Shown here: positions 9,785 through 59,148 of the stretch, one piece after another | How the letters are laid out: every line of letters begins with the position of its first letter | How positions within the stretch are numbered: position 1 is the first letter of the stretch | From: Arthrobacter sp. B3I4 | Lineage (GTDB): Bacteria; Actinomycetota; Actinomycetes; Actinomycetales; Micrococcaceae | Assembly: GCF_030816855.1 (NCBI RefSeq) | Contig: NZ_JAUSYK010000001.1 | Location: 2,542,001 to 2,606,000, forward strand | Direction of reading: 5' to 3' | DNA: 64,000 bases | Translations under genes and position numbers: made by a program | The notes under the pieces: generated by a model | Seen by the model: the letters and a program-made list of their open reading frames with translations, nothing else | Told to the model about the DNA's origin: nothing | The model's database searches: none

Positions 9785-10621
9785 CTAGAGATTCTCCAGC
9801 TCGGAACTGGGAGTGCCCTGGTCGGCGGTGGCTTCGGTCTCGGCGGCCACCTTCGCGGCGCGCTTCTCGCGCCGGCGGTCGTTGAGCAGGCACAGCCCGA
9901 TGGCGGCGAAGAAAAGCGCGAGCATGGGCACCGCGAGGTAGAACATGCTCATCGCGTCGGCGCCGGGCGCGGCCATGGCCGCGAAGAGACAAACGAGGAA
10001 CACGGTGATCCGCCAGCTCTTCAGCAGCTGCTGGCCCTTGATCAGTCCGGCCAGGTTCAGCCCGAACAGCACCACCGGCAGCAGGAACGCGATCCCGAAG
10101 GCAAGCAGCAGGCGCAGCACGAACGACAGGTACACCTGGGCGCTGATGAAGTTGGAGCCGCCCGAGGGGGTGAAGTCCGTGAGCACGCGCACGGCGTTGG
10201 GCAGCACCAGCCACGCGAGCAGCACGCCGCCCACGAAGAGCGGAACGGCGGCGGCGACAAAGGACAGCGCGAGGCGCCGTTCGTTCTTGTGCAGTCCGGG
10301 AACGATGAAGGCCCACAGCTGGTAGAGCCAGACCGGGCTGGCGACGATCAGACCCAGGAACACGGAAACCTGGATCATCAGGTCAAAGGAGCTTGCCACG
10401 CCGTCGAAGTTCAGCGACGCCTGCCGGCCCTCGTGGACGTTGAGGTCCCGGATCGGCTTGATCAGGGCCGCGAGCATGGGCTGGTAGACGAGGAAACCGA
10501 CGACTGTCCCGAGGACGACGGCAATGGCCGACTTAAAGAGCCGGGTGCGCAGCTCCTTAAGGTGATCGAGCAGGGCCATCCGGCCCTCGGGGTTCGATCG
10601 GCGGCTCATGGTTGCAGCCAT
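9785..10621 (-). CDS. tatC: Sec-independent protein translocase TatC
   Basis: 278 residues with six predicted transmembrane helices. It shows the TatC hallmark N-terminus (MALLDHLKELRTRLF, with the conserved E of the HLxELRxR motif), a conserved periplasmic-loop/TM region and a charged C-terminal tail. TatC is the twin-arginine signal receptor. The gene starts seven bases after tatA stops, so the two are co-transcribed, as in mycobacteria. The initial MAAT could be dispensable, since a second ATG lies four codons in. Confidence 0.95.
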   Translation of the reverse strand: MAATMSRRSNPEGRMALLDHLKELRTRLFKSAIAVVLGTVVGFLVYQPMLAALIKPIRDLNVHEGRQASLNFDGVASSFDLMIQVSVFLGLIVASPVWLYQLWAFIVPGLHKNERRLALSFVAAAVPLFVGGVLLAWLVLPNAVRVLTDFTPSGGSNFISAQVYLSFVLRLLLAFGIAFLLPVVLFGLNLAGLIKGQQLLKSWRITVFLVCLFAAMAAPGADAMSMFYLAVPMLALFFAAIGLCLLNDRRREKRAAKVAAETEATADQGTPSSELENL

Positions 10622-53200: not shown

Positions 53201-54685
53201 ATGAGCTCTCCCCATCTGCCCAACGAACCCGCGCCTGCGGCCCCTGCACTGACCCCGGCAGAAATCGCAGCCTGCCTCAAGGTGCTGAACAGCATCCACG
53301 TCTACGACGAGGAACACCCTGACTACGTCTCCATCCGGCGGGCGACCGGCAAGATGTTCAAAGCGGTTAAGCGCCACCGCAGGGTCACCAAACGGGATCT
53401 CATCGCCGAGGCGGACCGCGCCGTTATAGCCCAGACCGCAACCGCGGCACCGGACCGGATCGACGATGAGACGCGCGGCAACAAGCTGGCGCCGTCCGCC
53501 ACCGGTGAAGTGGCCGGGCACCTGCTCCGCTCGCGGCCGTGCTACATCTGCAAGCAGCACTACACCCAGGTGGATGCCTTCTACCACCAGCTGTGCCCGG
53601 AATGCGCGCACTTCAGCCACAGCAAGCGCGACGCCCGCACCGACCTGAACGGCCGCCGCGCCCTGCTGACCGGCGGCAGGGCCAAGATCGGCATGTACAT
53701 TGCGCTGCGGCTGCTCCGCGACGGCGCCCACACCACCATCACCACCCGCTTCCCGAAGGACGCCGCTCGGCGCTTCGCCGCGATGGAGGACAGTGCCGAC
53801 TGGCTGCACCGGCTGCGGATCGTCGGGATTGACCTGCGCGACCCCTCGCAGGTGATGGCCCTGACGGATTCCCTCGACGCTGCGGGGCCGCTGGACATCA
53901 TCATCAACAACGCCGCCCAGACCGTCCGCCGCTCAGGGAACGCCTACCAGCCGCTCGTGGACGCCGAAGATGAGCCGCTGCCGGCGGAACTGCAGGTGGC
54001 CAACGGCGGGCCGGAGCTTGTCACCTTCGGGCACGCCCACGACAAGCACCCGCTGGCTCTGGCCAGCTCCGTGCTGGACCACCCGGTCCTGGCCGGTGAC
54101 GCGATCACCTCGCTGGCGCTGTCGACCGGTTCCGCCTCCCTGGAGCGGATTGCGTCCGGTACCGCCATCGACGCCGGGGGCCTGGTTCCGGACCTCGCCA
54201 CGATCAACAGCTGGACCCAGGTGGTGGACGAAGTCGATCCTTTGGAGATGCTCGAGGTGCAGCTGTGCAACGTGACCGCGCCGTTCCTGCTGGTCAGCCG
54301 GCTGCGCGGGGCGATGAAACGGTCCACGGCGCGGCGGAAGTACATTGTCAACGTCAGTGCCATGGAAGGCCAGTTCTCCCGGGCCTACAAAGGGCCCGGG
54401 CACCCGCACACCAACATGGCCAAGGCCGCGTTGAACATGATGACCCGCACCAGTGCCAAGGAGATGCTGGAAACCGACGGCATCCTGATGACCGCCGTCG
54501 ACACCGGCTGGATCACCGACGAGCGGCCGCACTACACCAAGGTGCGGCTCATGGAGGAAGGCTTCCACGCCCCGCTGGACCTCGTTGACGGGGCTGCCCG
54601 GGTCTATGATCCGATCGTCATGGGCGAGGCCGGCGAGGACCAGTACGGCGTCTTCCTGAAGGACTACAAGCCGAGCCCCTGGTAG
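53201..54685 (+). CDS. Atypical SDR protein with an N-terminal zinc ribbon
   Basis: 494 residues. Domains: a basic/acidic helical N-terminus (about 1-100), a zinc ribbon (C114, C117, C132, C135: CYIC and CPEC), then a Rossmann fold starting TGGRAKIGMYIA (residue 157), NNAAQT (236-241), VNVSAMEGQF (Ser386). An insertion of about 100 residues (241-350) lies within the SDR core. The usual YxxxK position reads HPHTNMAKAA: K408 is kept, but the Tyr is Thr404. The substrate is unknown. TAAAAT (53188-53193) ends seven bases before ATG 53201. Confidence 0.8.
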   Translation: MSSPHLPNEPAPAAPALTPAEIAACLKVLNSIHVYDEEHPDYVSIRRATGKMFKAVKRHRRVTKRDLIAEADRAVIAQTATAAPDRIDDETRGNKLAPSATGEVAGHLLRSRPCYICKQHYTQVDAFYHQLCPECAHFSHSKRDARTDLNGRRALLTGGRAKIGMYIALRLLRDGAHTTITTRFPKDAARRFAAMEDSADWLHRLRIVGIDLRDPSQVMALTDSLDAAGPLDIIINNAAQTVRRSGNAYQPLVDAEDEPLPAELQVANGGPELVTFGHAHDKHPLALASSVLDHPVLAGDAITSLALSTGSASLERIASGTAIDAGGLVPDLATINSWTQVVDEVDPLEMLEVQLCNVTAPFLLVSRLRGAMKRSTARRKYIVNVSAMEGQFSRAYKGPGHPHTNMAKAALNMMTRTSAKEMLETDGILMTAVDTGWITDERPHYTKVRLMEEGFHAPLDLVDGAARVYDPIVMGEAGEDQYGVFLKDYKPSPW

Positions 54686-54720: not shown

Positions 54721-54734
54721 GGGCCGATTGGCCC
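54721..54734. promoter_or_regulatory. DevR/DosR-like box upstream of the first PNPOx gene
   Basis: GGGCCGATTGGCCC, a GGGCC-N4-GGCCC palindrome. It has the same 14-bp layout as the mycobacterial DosR core GGGACT-WW-AGTCCC, and is centred about 42 bases upstream of the leaderless start 54770. Confidence 0.55.
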
Positions 54735-54769
54735 TAATGTGGCCGGGGGGCGGTCCGTAACGTGGAGTT

Positions 54770-55237
54770 GTGACTACGACGACGCCTCCCCCCAATTTCC
54801 AGCTGTCCATGGACCAGTGCTGGGTGCTGCTCGATAGCGAAGTCGTCGGCCGGATAGCGCTGATCGTGGACGGCCACCCGGAGGTTTTTCCGGTGAACTT
54901 CGTGCTGCAGCGCCGGTCGATCGTGTTCCGCACCGCCGGGGGCACGAAACTGTGGGGCGCCATCACCGCCAAGCCGGTGGCGTTTGAGATCGACGGTTAT
55001 GACGAGCACGAGCAGACTGCCTGGAGCGTCGTCGCCCGCGGCGAAGCGGAACTGGTCGAGGACCAGGCGGAGAAGGACGCGGTGGACGAGCTGCTCCTGG
55101 AGCCGTGGCAGCCCGGTGAGAAAAACTACTATGTGCGGTTGGCCCCCAAGGCCCTCACGGGCCGCCGGTTCAAGGTCAACAGTCCGGACGTCTGGCGGAC
55201 CAGGCTTTCAGACCCGCGCCGGTCCTCGTTCGAGTAG
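54770..55237 (+). CDS. Pyridoxamine 5'-phosphate oxidase family protein (1)
   Basis: 155 residues, split-barrel flavin-binding fold. It contains LDSEVVGRIALIVDGHPEVFPVNFVLQRRSIVFRT with the typical GRI and VNF signature. It is paralogous to the protein at 58666 (GRLAVWVDDHPDIFPINY). Likely an FMN- or F420-binding protein of unknown substrate; DosR-regulon relatives of this fold are known in mycobacteria. GTG 54770 has TAACGT (54758-54763) six bases upstream. Confidence 0.85.
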   Translation: MTTTTPPPNFQLSMDQCWVLLDSEVVGRIALIVDGHPEVFPVNFVLQRRSIVFRTAGGTKLWGAITAKPVAFEIDGYDEHEQTAWSVVARGEAELVEDQAEKDAVDELLLEPWQPGEKNYYVRLAPKALTGRRFKVNSPDVWRTRLSDPRRSSFE

Positions 55238-55337
55238 CCGGTTCTCTTGGTCGGCACGCCGTCGGGCACGCAGGCACCGTCGGCACAGAGACGCAGTCGA
55301 GCACAGGCGCCGCTTTCCGGTGAACCGGTGTAACGGC

Positions 55338-55790
55338 CTACCGCTGCTCCGGCTGCTCGGGCGTGTGGACCACCAGAACGGGGCAGTGCGCGTGCGCGAC
55401 CAGGGCTGAGCTGACCGAACCCAGCAGCAGGCCGCCGAACCCGCCGTGGCCGCGCCGGCCCAGGACGATCATGTCGGCACGGCGGCTCTCATCGATGAGG
55501 ACCCGCCGCGGATGACCCTGGACCAGCCGGGTCTCGACATAGTCGGGCATGCTCTCGCCGAAGGCCTTATCCACGGTTTCCTGCAGGATCTCCGACGCCC
55601 GGACATCGAAGTCGTCGATGCCCATCGCCACGTAGCCGTCGTAAACGGGCGGGATATCCCAGCATGCCAGCGCCACGATTTTGGCCGACAACGCAACTGC
55701 CAACTCCCGGGCCCGGCGGAGCGCCTCCACCGAAGCATCCGAACCGTCCACTCCGACCAGTATCGTCCGGATGCCCGTTGCCTCGCCCAT
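55338..55790 (-). CDS. Universal stress protein
   Basis: 150 residues, single UspA domain. RTILVGVDGSDASVEALRRA begins the fold and the ATP-binding signature GRRGHGGFGGLLLGSVSSALVAHA (G2xG9xGS/T) closes it, so it likely binds ATP. AAGGGA precedes the ATG at 55790. It is divergent from the response regulator gene and shares the intergenic DevR-like box. Longer reading from 55985 overlaps the regulatory region. Confidence 0.93.
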   Translation of the reverse strand: MGEATGIRTILVGVDGSDASVEALRRARELAVALSAKIVALACWDIPPVYDGYVAMGIDDFDVRASEILQETVDKAFGESMPDYVETRLVQGHPRRVLIDESRRADMIVLGRRGHGGFGGLLLGSVSSALVAHAHCPVLVVHTPEQPEQR

Positions 55791-55901
55791 GTGTAGTCCC
55801 TTCGTGTGCCCCGCAGCTAGCCTCAACCCTTGTGCCCGTCCCCGGGGGTGGCTAGGGCCGAAAGTCACGGCCTTGGAGCGGAAACCGCCGGGAATCCTCC
55901 G

Positions 55902-55915
55902 GGGCCCAACGGCCC
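55902..55915. promoter_or_regulatory. DevR/DosR-like box between usp and the response regulator
   Basis: GGGCCCAACGGCCC, the same GGGCC-N4-GGCCC architecture as at 54721. It lies about 112 bases from the usp start and 121 from the regulator start, so it could serve both divergent genes. Confidence 0.5.
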
Positions 55916-56035
55916 TTCCCCGGCGCCGCGCCTGGGACAGAATATTGCTGTGCGCCGGAAAGAAATATCCGGATTTCGCGGCCATTAAGGGCGTGGGGGT
56001 TTCACAATGGAAGAACGATGTCGAAGGGGAGAAAC

Positions 56036-56785
56036 ATGTTCGCCTGGTCAGATGCCGGTCTTACACCGGCCGAGGAGCACCACGCGGTGATCCGGGTCTT
56101 TATCCTCGATGACCATGAGCTGGTCCGCCGTGGCCTTCAGGAGCTTTTGGAAGGCGAGGGTTTCTTGGTGGTGGGCAGCTCAGGGTCAGCGGTGGAGGCG
56201 ACCCGCCGTATTCCTGCCCTGCACCCCGATGTCTGCGTGCTTGATGCCCGGTTGCCGGACGGCACCGGAATCGAGGTCTGCCGGGACGTCCGCTCGGTTG
56301 ATCCGGCGCTGAACTGCATAATACTGACCAGTTACGACGACGAACAGGCGCTGCGCGGGGCCGTCCTCGCCGGCGCTTCAGGCTACGTTCTGAAGGAAAT
56401 CGGTGGGACCGACCTGATCGGCGCGTTGCGGCGTGCGGCTGCTGGCGAAAGCCTGTTCGACGACGGCGTGGCCGCGGGCATCGTCGACAGCATGGTCGAA
56501 ACCCAGGAGCTGGATCCGCGGACCGCAGCCCTTACACCGCAGGAACGCCGGGTGCTGGAACTGGTCGGCAACGGCCTTACCAACCGCCAGATTGCGGCCG
56601 AGATGTTCCTCGCCGAGAAGACGGTCAAAAACTATGTGTCATCCCTTCTTGCCAAGCTGGGCTTCGAGCGCCGCACACAGGCGGCGGTCTTCATCGCCAG
56701 CCCGGCCGGGCCGGCGACCACACCCCTGCCCGTGACAGCTGAGGCCGGGCGTCAACACGAAGGCCGGCAGCACAGCGTCCGCTAG
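56036..56785 (+). CDS. NarL/LuxR-family response regulator (DevR/DosR-like)
   Basis: 249 residues. Receiver domain: VFILDDHELVRRGLQELL (acidic pair), the phospho-acceptor Asp in VCVLDARLPDGTG, and a Lys in YVLKEIG. The LuxR-type HTH is LTPQERRVLELVGNGLTNRQIAAEMFLAEKTVKNYVSSLLAKLG. It fits DevR by order and context. ATG 56036 has AAGGGGAG upstream; ATG 56018 is weaker. The histidine kinase gene is convergent 24 nt downstream. Confidence 0.93.
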   Translation: MFAWSDAGLTPAEEHHAVIRVFILDDHELVRRGLQELLEGEGFLVVGSSGSAVEATRRIPALHPDVCVLDARLPDGTGIEVCRDVRSVDPALNCIILTSYDDEQALRGAVLAGASGYVLKEIGGTDLIGALRRAAAGESLFDDGVAAGIVDSMVETQELDPRTAALTPQERRVLELVGNGLTNRQIAAEMFLAEKTVKNYVSSLLAKLGFERRTQAAVFIASPAGPATTPLPVTAEAGRQHEGRQHSVR

Positions 56786-56809
56786 GACGACAACGAGGAG
56801 CGGAACGGG

Positions 56810-58507
56810 CTAGAGCGGAACTGACCACTCCACGCTCGTGCCCTCATCCGGCGCCGACACGATGTTGCACTCGCCGTCGAGCATCCGCGCCCGGTCCTCC
56901 AGGTTCGCCAGCCCGTTGCGTGGTGTAGCCGCGGGAAACCCCGACCCGTTGTCGGTAACCACCACCGTGATCCGGCCGTTGATGGCGGCGACGGAGACCG
57001 AGATGGCGTCTGCCCCGGAGTGCCGGACAGCGTTGCTCAATCCCTCAGAAACAACGGCCACAACATTGTCCGCTTTCTCCGAGGGCACGGCGTCCACCGG
57101 GCCGGTTAGGGTCAGCCGCGGGGTGAAGGGCATCGACTTGGCGGTACTGCGGGTGACCCGCCGGATCCGGCCGCTGAGGAGTTCAGCTTCACCACTGCTG
57201 CTGCGCAGCGAGTAAATCGTGTCACGCAGGCTGCGGATCGCTTCGTCCAGCTCACCGGTGATGTTGCGGATCCGCTCGGTGGCGAGGTCATCCTTCGTGA
57301 AGCGGGCCAGGCTTTGGACGCTCAGCCCCGCGGCGAAGAGCCGTTGAATGACCAGGTCGTGCAGGTCACGGGCGATCCGGTCGCGGTCCGTGAACACCAA
57401 CAGTTCTTCCCGGAGCCGGTGCACCCGGGCCAGCTCGAGGGCCAGGGCGACGTGCGAGCCGTAAACAGCGCCCATCTCAACGTCGGTGCGCGCGTAGTGG
57501 CGGGCTTCCGGCGTGCGGGCCAGCAGGAGCAGGCCGTGGTGTGCGCCCTGCGTGCTCAGGGCGACCGCGAGCAGGGGCCCCGAGCTGCCGGCGTCGAGCA
57601 CGTCCAACACCGCGGCGGCGTTGTCAAAGGTGACGGGTTCGCCACCCGCGAGCACTTCCTGCAGCTCACTTGAGTCGAGAGTCAGCGTCCTACCTCTGAA
57701 CTCCCTGGCCATACCGCCCGCAGCGCCTGCGACGATGTGGCCCTCCCCCGACGGGGCGGGCGCCACAATGAGTGCCAGCTGCGACTCGGATTCCTGAAGT
57801 GCCCGGGCGGCGACGGGATCCAGCCCGACGGCGGTGTAGTCCCGGTCGCTGGCCAGCATCAGACCGGCGACGTCCATGCAGGCTTCCAGCCACCGTGCAC
57901 GGCGCCGCGCGTCGTCGTACAATTTCGCGTTTTCGACCGCGACGCCGGCAGCTGCCGCCAGCGCGACCGCAAGTCCCTCGTCGGCGTCGCTGAAGTCACC
58001 GCCGTCCTCCTTTTCGGTGAGGTACAGAATACCGAACACCGTGTCGCGGATGCGGACCGGTACGCCGAGGAAGGAACGCATGACCGGGTGGTGCTCGGGA
58101 AACCCCTGAAATTCCGGATGAGTGCGCAGGTCCCGCATCCTCAACGGCCGTGGCTCGGCGACCAGCAGTCCCAACACGCCCTTGCCGGTCGGCACCAGGC
58201 CAATCTTGTGGCCGAGTTCGTCATCGATTCCGACGGTGATGAAATGGCTCAGGGCGCCGTTGTCCCCCATCACGCCCAGGGCTCCGTAGCTGGCGTGCAG
58301 GAGATCGCAGGCGGAGCGAACCACCCGCTCCAGGACGGCCTCCAGGCTAAGGTCCTCGGCCAGTGCGACGACAGCTTCCAGCAGGCCGGCCATCCGCTCC
58401 TGGGACTGCAGCAGCTCACCTCCCCGGGACACGAAATCCCGCAGCAGGTCCTCCACTTTGGGGGTGCCCGGCCTGACTGGGCCCGGGTCGTTGTCTATCG
58501 ACTGCAC
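56810..58507 (-). CDS. GAF-domain sensor histidine kinase (DevS/DosS-like)
   Basis: 565 residues. Two GAF domains (about 40-195 and 210-360) precede the HisKA_3 dimerisation domain with phospho-His 383 (RIARDLHDLVIQRLFAAGL), N box (SEGLSNAVRHSGA) and ATPase glycines (DNGSGFP). The first GAF contains FQGFPEHHPVMRSFLGVPV, matching the DevS/DosT heme pocket; His140 is the likely proximal ligand. It is paired with the convergent DevR-like gene, and transcribed from the region divergent from the second PNPOx gene. GTG start. Confidence 0.9.
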   Translation of the reverse strand: MQSIDNDPGPVRPGTPKVEDLLRDFVSRGGELLQSQERMAGLLEAVVALAEDLSLEAVLERVVRSACDLLHASYGALGVMGDNGALSHFITVGIDDELGHKIGLVPTGKGVLGLLVAEPRPLRMRDLRTHPEFQGFPEHHPVMRSFLGVPVRIRDTVFGILYLTEKEDGGDFSDADEGLAVALAAAAGVAVENAKLYDDARRRARWLEACMDVAGLMLASDRDYTAVGLDPVAARALQESESQLALIVAPAPSGEGHIVAGAAGGMAREFRGRTLTLDSSELQEVLAGGEPVTFDNAAAVLDVLDAGSSGPLLAVALSTQGAHHGLLLLARTPEARHYARTDVEMGAVYGSHVALALELARVHRLREELLVFTDRDRIARDLHDLVIQRLFAAGLSVQSLARFTKDDLATERIRNITGELDEAIRSLRDTIYSLRSSSGEAELLSGRIRRVTRSTAKSMPFTPRLTLTGPVDAVPSEKADNVVAVVSEGLSNAVRHSGADAISVSVAAINGRITVVVTDNGSGFPAATPRNGLANLEDRARMLDGECNIVSAPDEGTSVEWSVPL

Positions 58508-58572
58508 TATGCCCCCCCCAACTCCATGACGTTCATCCGCACCGATGACGTGCTGTCAGAATACGCCCGTTC

Positions 58573-58587
58573 GGGCCGCTGGGACCC
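58573..58587. promoter_or_regulatory. Distal DevR-like box between devS-like and PNPOx2 genes
   Basis: GGGCCGCTGGGACCC, an imperfect palindrome of 15 bp: GGGCC with GACCC, with five bases between. It is centred about 86 bases upstream of 58666, between the divergent kinase and PNPOx2 genes. Confidence 0.4.
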
Positions 58588-58614
58588 TCCCGGCGGCAGG
58601 ATTATTACGCCGGC

Positions 58615-58628
58615 AGGCCGTTATGCCC
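58615..58628. promoter_or_regulatory. Proximal degenerate DevR-like box before PNPOx2
   Basis: AGGCCGTTATGCCC, a weakened GGGCC-N4-GGCCC site (one mismatch per arm). It is centred about 44 bases upstream of the leaderless start 58666, the same position as the box before PNPOx1, and about 42 bases from the distal box. Confidence 0.4.
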
Positions 58629-58665
58629 TATCTCTTCGGACGCTGGCTGCCGTAAGCTCGGCGCC

Positions 58666-59148
58666 ATGAGTGATCCGAAGCCGGTCGGCAACCCGCCCCA
58701 CGACGTCGAGAACCTGGACAACCACGAGTGCTGGCGGATGCTCCGCACCGTCAGCGTGGGCAGGCTGGCGGTCTGGGTGGACGACCATCCCGATATCTTC
58801 CCGATCAACTACAAGGTGGACCACGGGACGCTCGTGTTCCGTACCGCGGACGGCACCAAGCTGCAGGCCGCGACCGGTGACACCCCGGTGGCCGTTGAGG
58901 CTGACGGCGTCGACTCGGACACCGGTGTTGCCTGGAGTGTGGTCATCAAGGGCCAGGCCGCCGCGGTGAAGAACCAGGAAGAGGTTCTGGACACGGTGGG
59001 TCTGTTGCTGTTCCCCTGGCAGGCAGGCAAGAAGGAGCACTTCGTCCGGATTACGCCGGAGTCCGTGACCGGCCGGCGCTTCAAGATCGTCCCGCCGTTG
59101 ACCTGGTGGACGCCGCTGGACGACGCCACCCGCTCCGGGCTCGAATAA
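58666..59148 (+). CDS. Pyridoxamine 5'-phosphate oxidase family protein (2)
   Basis: 160 residues, paralogue of the protein at 54770 (shared GRxAxxVDxHPxxFPxN, VFRTAxGTKL, AWSVV, and TGRRFK motifs). Probably binds FMN or F420. TAAGCT (58653-58658) ends seven bases before ATG 58666, with no Shine-Dalgarno. The DevR-like boxes upstream suggest redox or hypoxia control. Confidence 0.85.
   Translation: MSDPKPVGNPPHDVENLDNHECWRMLRTVSVGRLAVWVDDHPDIFPINYKVDHGTLVFRTADGTKLQAATGDTPVAVEADGVDSDTGVAWSVVIKGQAAAVKNQEEVLDTVGLLLFPWQAGKKEHFVRITPESVTGRRFKIVPPLTWWTPLDDATRSGLE

Follow-up and report, generated by a model that had tools for sequence, protein, structure and literature searches.

The question raised by this locus is whether the palindromes of the form GGGCC-N4-GGCCC that recur in a small gene island of Arthrobacter sp. 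B3I4 are genuine regulatory boxes or an accident of GC-rich DNA. The DNA analysed, referred to as the window, is a stretch of 64,000 nt (NZ_JAUSYK010000001.1, 2,542,001-2,606,000) from a genome of 3.61 Mb. The island (window positions 54721..59148) comprises the genes for a response regulator, a sensor histidine kinase, a universal stress protein (USP, gene usp) and two proteins of the PNPOx fold (PNPOx1 and PNPOx2), together with their promoters. We find that the island boxes are real, as their conservation and fixed position exceed chance, which the raw frequency of the string does not. The sequences very probably represent the core of a dormancy or redox regulon of the DosR/DevR/OsdR type, a known kind of switch with a predicted regulon. 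This agrees with a preliminary description of the window, which had proposed a DevR/DevS-type system with 14-bp boxes of the DosR type in front of usp, the two PNPOx genes and the gene of the regulator itself.

Conservation and consensus of the boxes

Micrococcaceae loci from a single scan (the best 80 of 214) served as the sample of relatives, and a dyad, GGGnCnTTnGnCCCT, is common to the upstream regions of the orthologous genes in these 80 loci. When exact matches to GGGNC-Nk-GNCCC were counted for spacers of k = 0-12 in the upstream regions of the relatives' genes, with the window excluded, a spacer of 4 bp was found for the regulator in 43 of 79 regions, for PNPOx1 in 30 of 46, for PNPOx2 in 11 of 70 and for usp in 30 of 71. 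The other spacers occurred in at most 5, 10, 4 and 6 regions, respectively, so that only the 4-bp spacer is enriched. Regulator and usp regions overlap where these genes are divergent, and the relatives do not form an independent sample; both limitations apply equally to the counts for the other spacers. A de novo motif search, applied to 74 regions for the regulator, 49 for PNPOx2 and 56 for usp, returned the dyad as the top motif in each case, its log-likelihood ratio being 677, 475 and 577, respectively, compared to 82, 95 and 65 for shuffled regions.

A matrix derived from 25 OsdR sites published for S. coelicolor, applied to 63,985 window positions, placed the two exact boxes of the island at ranks 1 (55902) and 3 (54721), the usp box (55854-55869) at rank 7, and the boxes at 58614 and 58572 at ranks 15 and 69. 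With 3 window sites scoring at least 13 where 1.0 would be expected, there is no striking excess by this measure alone. In the relatives, the best upstream site was rank 1 of its locus in 11 of 80 cases and among the top 10 in 44 of 80. Because the Streptomyces matrix did so poorly on these loci, the box model was rebuilt from the relatives; for PNPOx1 it was seeded by eye from the regions, since the top de novo motif there (37 regions) corresponded to the terminal part of the preceding coding gene. The resulting matrix, which contains no window sequence, ranked the usp, regulator, PNPOx1 and PNPOx2 boxes 1, 2, 3 and 4 among 127,972 window positions. The fourth of these sites scored 13.9, and the fifth site of the window, which is intragenic, 13.4.

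The boxes of the relatives have the consensus GGGtCcTtgGaCCCTTGT for the regulator gene, GGGnCnTTgTGCCCT for PNPOx2, gTGaCtTTnGGCCCTA for usp and GGGCCttATGGCCCTaAT for PNPOx1. Only the last of these (as GGGCCttATGGCCCT) comes near GGGCC-N4-GGCCC, which had been put forward as the defining consensus of the island and can no longer be regarded as such. The stringent mycobacterial DosR consensus is GGGACTTNNGNCCCT (PMC6448022), and a CG-rich consensus, AGGGCCGATCGGCCCT, is given for OsdR of Streptomyces (PMC5069765). A CG-shifted DosR box had been proposed. The boxes of this strain are richer in CG, but judged by its sequence the box of the family is close to the mycobacterial consensus, and the CG-rich form had already been published for OsdR.

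Position of the boxes in the predicted promoters

PNPOx1 is preceded by an exact box, GGGCCGATTGGCCC (54721..54734, + strand), the centre of which lies 42.5 bp ahead of the GTG start codon (54770), with a predicted -10 element TAACGT (54758..54763, +) located 23 bp downstream of the box. A second exact box, GGGCCCAACGGCCC (55902..55915, +; rank 2 with the relatives' matrix), belongs to the regulator gene; its probable -10 element is GAATAT (55940..55945, +) at a gap of 24 bp, while AATATT at a gap of 25 bp is the hexamer that passes the test described below. The divergently transcribed usp gene has a box of its own, GTGACTTTCGGCCC (55855..55868, -; rank 1), which together with an adjoining T agrees with the mycobacterial consensus at 11 of its 12 specified bases and lies 23 bp upstream of a predicted -10 element AAGGGT (55826..55831, -). 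This box had escaped notice. The divergent pair does not share a single box, as had been supposed. The PNPOx2 box, AGGCCGTTATGCCC (58615..58628, +; two mismatches; rank 4), has its centre 44.5 bp ahead of the ATG start codon (58666); the predicted -10 element TAAGCT (58653..58658, +) follows after 24 bp. Both exact boxes, the degraded copy in front of PNPOx2 and a further one at 58573..58586 (one mismatch) had been recognised before, as had the position near -42 of the (near-)leaderless PNPOx starts and the distance of 42 bp, centre to centre, between the two boxes preceding PNPOx2.

The spacing found in the window (23 bp for PNPOx1 and usp, 24 bp for PNPOx2, 24-25 bp for the regulator) recurs in the relatives, for which the motif [TA]ANNNT was counted at gaps of 12-33 bp downstream of each box. 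Boxes with too short a downstream sequence were dropped (4 of 23 for PNPOx1, 30 of 56 for PNPOx2). The motif was found at gap 23 in 14 and at gap 24 in 3 of 19 PNPOx1 boxes, in 8 and 18 of 26 PNPOx2 boxes (all 26 together), in 37 and 16 of 65 regulator boxes (53 together), and in 11 and 2 of 52 usp boxes, 7 of which have it at gap 29. Apart from these gaps, none in the range exceeded a count of 3. A gap of 23-24 bp places the centre of the box near -42.5, which, relative to the predicted transcription starts, is a position of the activating type; proximal DevR sites of mycobacteria likewise overlap the -35 region (PMC3029386).

It has to be considered that the boxes are chance palindromes of GC-rich DNA that happen to lie near a two-component gene pair. 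Such an origin would fit their raw frequency, which is at or below chance: allowing for up to 2 mismatches, GGGCC-N4-GGCCC occurs 161 times in the window where 196.2 (sd 13.1) were expected from 100 shuffles, and exact copies are found at 22 places in the genome as opposed to 80 for the reversed pattern. Six of these 22 places fall into the window, the island accounting for only 2 of the 6, and equally exact copies occur inside coding regions (7747, 49692 and 62499). A test that had been proposed for refuting the boxes thus gave a divided answer, since the motif is no more frequent than expected for GC-rich DNA and yet is conserved in orthologous islands. What chance does not provide is conservation tied to one particular spacer, a fixed distance between box and -10 element, ranks 1-4 with a matrix free of window sequence, and the link to the presence of the regulator described in the following section. 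We thus consider it extremely unlikely that the boxes are accidental. The exact copy at 10573-10586 was dropped as a candidate target as it coincides in part with the start of an ORF (open reading frame) that was named tatC-like from its sequence; the ORF list places the copy inside this frame and a codon-usage gene caller just outside of it.

The regulator as the probable reader of the boxes

The regulator gene (56036..56785, +; the ORF opens at 56018) is assigned to the ATG at 56036, which is preceded by GGGGAG and is kept as the start position in the relatives. Its product contains Response_reg (9.3e-24) and GerE (1.2e-17) domains and, among solved structures, is closest to DevR (3c3w, 4.2e-65), followed at a distance by VraR (3.7e-31). 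In the alignment with DevR, 115 of 204 columns are identical (56%), the recognition helix AEKTVKNYVS is shared in 10 of 10 positions, and 25 of 29 residues agree from this motif onward. By its domains, its kinship to DevR and the box at a proximal position in its own promoter, the regulator belongs to the DevR/DosR/OsdR response regulators. It is the only DevR-like regulator in this genome, the next matches being 33% and 37% identical.

Presence of the regulator and of the box architecture (GGGNCNNNNKNCCCT followed by 22 N and TANNNT, with the reversed pattern as control) was scored in the same 59 genomes. The same-genus genomes split into 25 with a regulator match of E <= 1e-94 and 12 with matches of E >= 1e-37 or none. 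In the 25 genomes that have the regulator, 132 sites were found (27 for the control), while the 12 without it have 8 (13 for the control). Two or more sites occur in 23 of 25 and 1 of 12 genomes, respectively, and site counts differ significantly between the two groups (Mann-Whitney, p = 4.9e-6) while the controls do not (0.61), in a comparison that takes no account of phylogeny and in which the promoters of the island itself form part of the 132 sites. In the order's other families, a regulator match of E <= 1e-60 was obtained for 8 genomes, which contain 10 sites (control 4), as against 2 sites (control 3) in the 14 genomes lacking such a match.

The boxes might be real and yet be read by another factor, of the NarL/LuxR or the Crp-like type, with the neighbouring regulator acting elsewhere. 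Other NarL-type regulators (33-37% identity) are encoded in the genome, a second regulator of the DevR-like kind occurs in some relatives, and the assignment of the boxes to their reader is deduced from sequence. On the other hand, the box is of the known DevR/OsdR type (PMC5069765 and PMC6448022), the recognition helix AEKTVKNYVS has been kept, and the box architecture tracks the presence of the regulator across 37 same-genus genomes. A different reader is thus highly improbable, and we favour the neighbouring regulator in this role.

Several observations weigh against our interpretation. Besides the low raw counts of the string and the two limits of the genome comparison, GGGNCNNNNKNCCCT is less frequent genome-wide than its reversed form (114 vs 209 matches), and there are exceptions to the co-occurrence, as no site was found in genome G015 despite its regulator, while G035 has 2 sites and no regulator match. 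The second regulator of some same-genus genomes is 50-55% identical. Among the four promoters, the spacer test is weakest for PNPOx2, where the count is low because the second half of the box is mostly TG rather than GG; for PNPOx1, the de novo search put a motif other than the dyad first; for usp, a -10 motif at gaps of 23-24 bp follows no more than 13 of the 52 boxes; and the kinase box is weak (rank 590 of 127,972).

Two observations on the genomes compared may be added. One of them, G026, is only 68% complete. A second DevR-like regulator with a box and -10 site nearby is found in G028 (C1:2285023-2285694, site at 2286449), with similar cases in other same-genus genomes.

Putative mechanism and the other island proteins

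The sensor histidine kinase (56810..58507, -) contains GAF, HisKA_3 and HATPase_c domains, and the solved structures nearest to its GAF domain are 2vzw and the DevS entries. His140 is part of an HHP / GFPxxHPxM motif, and GFPxxHPxMxxFLGxP is present in 70 of the 78 relatives' loci that have the kinase. We assume this residue to be the heme ligand, i.e. the counterpart of DevS His149. The kinase thus has the domains and the histidine of the DevS/DosT/OsdK group, and heme binding as well as a response to O2, NO or CO would be expected from its family.

The USP (55338..55790, -; 150 aa; Pfam Usp, 8.1e-29), the start of which was set at 55790 while the ORF begins at 55985, is most similar to TB31.7 among solved structures (2jax, 5.5e-27). 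PNPOx1 (54770..55237, +; 155 aa; 1.7e-35) and PNPOx2 (58666..59148, +; 160 aa; 8.5e-32) both belong to Pfam PF12900 (Pyridox_ox_2), are encoded by (near-)leaderless genes, and match best to the same structure, 6eci (3.9e-28 and 5.9e-29), which we take to be MSMEG_5243, the flavin-sequestering protein Fsq. According to PMC13284343, Fsq is a member of the dormancy regulon and protects FAD. PNPOx1 is probably a protein of this flavin-sequestering type.

Taken together, these assignments suggest a process where the kinase, via its heme-GAF domain of the DevS type, would sense low oxygen, NO/CO or the redox state and phosphorylate the DevR-like regulator. The phosphorylated regulator would then bind the 14-bp dyad GGGnC-N4-GnCCC(T) near -42.5, where it would overlap the -35 region, and could aid RNA polymerase at promoters that have a -10 element but little of a -35 element. 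In this manner the gene of the regulator itself, the universal stress protein and two presumably flavin-binding proteins of the PNPOx fold would be switched on, and probably further targets elsewhere in the genome. Arthrobacter and its kin survive starvation and drying in soil for long periods. A sharp rule consisting of the box, 23-24 bp and the -10 element would allow the regulon to be read from many genomes and put to the test in bacteria that are not pathogenic, and would show a core of heme kinase, regulator, USP and flavin-binding PNPOx that is common to mycobacteria, Streptomyces and Micrococcaceae.

Candidate targets beyond the island

The preliminary description considered the regulon to be compact, i.e. 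confined to the island. This would be consistent with the lack of a genome-wide excess of GGGNCNNNNKNCCCT and with the scarcity of the full architecture, as box, 22 N and TANNNT are combined at only 5 places in this genome (none for the control), one of which is in the island. A different picture emerges from the locations of the best boxes. The relatives' matrix was applied to the 100 listed among the 114 matches to GGGNCNNNNKNCCCT, and the top 14 entries represent 11 distinct places outside the window. All 11 are intergenic according to a home-made codon-usage gene caller, compared to 4 of the next 9 places fetched and 6 of 20 in a low-scoring set that was hand-picked, non-randomly, from rank 43 downward. 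Because the top-scoring outside boxes are intergenic, a regulon extending beyond the island is likely, its members being predictions, and confinement to the island appears rather unlikely.

Genes near the outside boxes code for two USPs (L130 and L134), a thioredoxin (L126), a glyoxalase-like protein (L129), the N-terminus of a molybdopterin oxidoreductase (L127), and a GyrI-like protein with a kinase-pyrophosphorylase (L128). For the 15 intergenic places fetched, [TA]ANNNT was found at gap 23 in 4 (L129, L131, L132 and L136) and nowhere in the range in 10. Few of the 18 Usp-domain matches of the genome, with start sites guessed by a script, have a strong box. Outside the island, one that points toward the gene is found at 502995 and at 2684404-2685246, and, except for the gene at 1453827 described below, the remaining matches have low scores. 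A third gene for a PNPOx protein (29837) was rejected as a member, its best box scoring 6.6 with no -10 element at 18-29 bp.

At L127, a near-perfect DosR box, GGGACTTTTGTCCCT (~2001-2015), is situated between the start of the molybdopterin-oxidoreductase (formate-dehydrogenase-like) gene and an ORF without a Pfam match. At L113 (G000:C1:1452327-1455725), a very strong box, GTGACTTTTGGCCC, with a score of 22.2 is found 143 bp ahead of a tandem USP gene (1453827) and points away from it; the divergent ORF is doubtful.

The kinase promoter and gene order in relatives

The kinase gene is divergent from PNPOx2, and both boxes between them had been ascribed to this pair. That at 58615 is indeed the PNPOx2 box, while the weak box at 58573..58586 (-), at about -86 of PNPOx2, lies only 9 bp upstream of the predicted -10 element of the kinase (TATTCT, 58558..58563, -), its centre being at about -28.5 and not at -42. 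Among 48 kinase promoters of relatives, a box scoring at least 7 was found at a gap of 9 bp in 5 and of 10 bp in 2, while the remaining gaps between 3 and 31 bp yielded none. In part of the genus, the kinase box, located 9-10 bp ahead of the -10 element, could be in a position suited to repression, as opposed to the activating position of the other island boxes at -42.5, a speculation which we regard as unlikely. If true, the regulator would raise its own level and lower that of its sensor, a brake on the dormancy switch that would be impossible in the operon arrangement of mycobacteria.

In 70 of the 80 relatives' loci, the regulator and kinase genes lie next to each other in convergent orientation. 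In 30 loci (L016-L045) an SDR gene precedes the regulator in every case, and PNPOx1 is present in 27 of them; the SDR-like protein of the window (53201-54685; 494 aa) has an extra N-terminal part. At five loci (L088, L089, L091, L094 and L095, from Paeniglutamicibacter and one Arthrobacter), the kinase beside the conserved regulator shares only 32-40% identity and does not contain the heme-GAF motif searched for; the sensor may have been exchanged. The kinase match of L022 is in three pieces, possibly due to a frameshift or an assembly error.

Comparison with known systems

The Arthrobacter system looks like a little-studied branch of a known switch; no paper on such a system in Arthrobacter was found among the open-licence literature matches listed. 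It resembles the mycobacterial DosR (DevR)/DosS/DosT system in the regulator (56% identity, shared recognition helix), the GAF domain of the kinase (nearest to DevS), a box near GGGACTTNNGNCCCT (PMC6448022), a proximal site over the -35 region (PMC3029386), a USP nearest to TB31.7, and dormancy proteins of the PNPOx fold (PMC13284343). It differs in that the kinase and regulator genes are convergent rather than forming one operon, with a PNPOx gene transcribed divergently to the kinase, within 500 bp of it, in 62 of the 78 loci, in the more CG-rich boxes of this strain, and in having one proximal box per island promoter instead of several closely spaced ones.

With OsdR/OsdK of S. coelicolor the system shares the CG-rich form of the box, AGGGCCGATCGGCCCT, and the OsdR regulon is predicted to include usp genes, the pyridoxamine-phosphate oxidase gene SCO0214 and osdR itself (PMC5069765). 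The genes osdR and osdK form an operon in that organism, and the core spacer is CGATCG as opposed to CTTnG in the boxes of the relatives. Similarity to the flavin-sequestering FDOR proteins (Fsq/MSMEG_5243 and Rv0080) is suggested by the best match of both PNPOx proteins to 6eci, while the presence of two PNPOx copies in one island distinguishes the Arthrobacter system from these.

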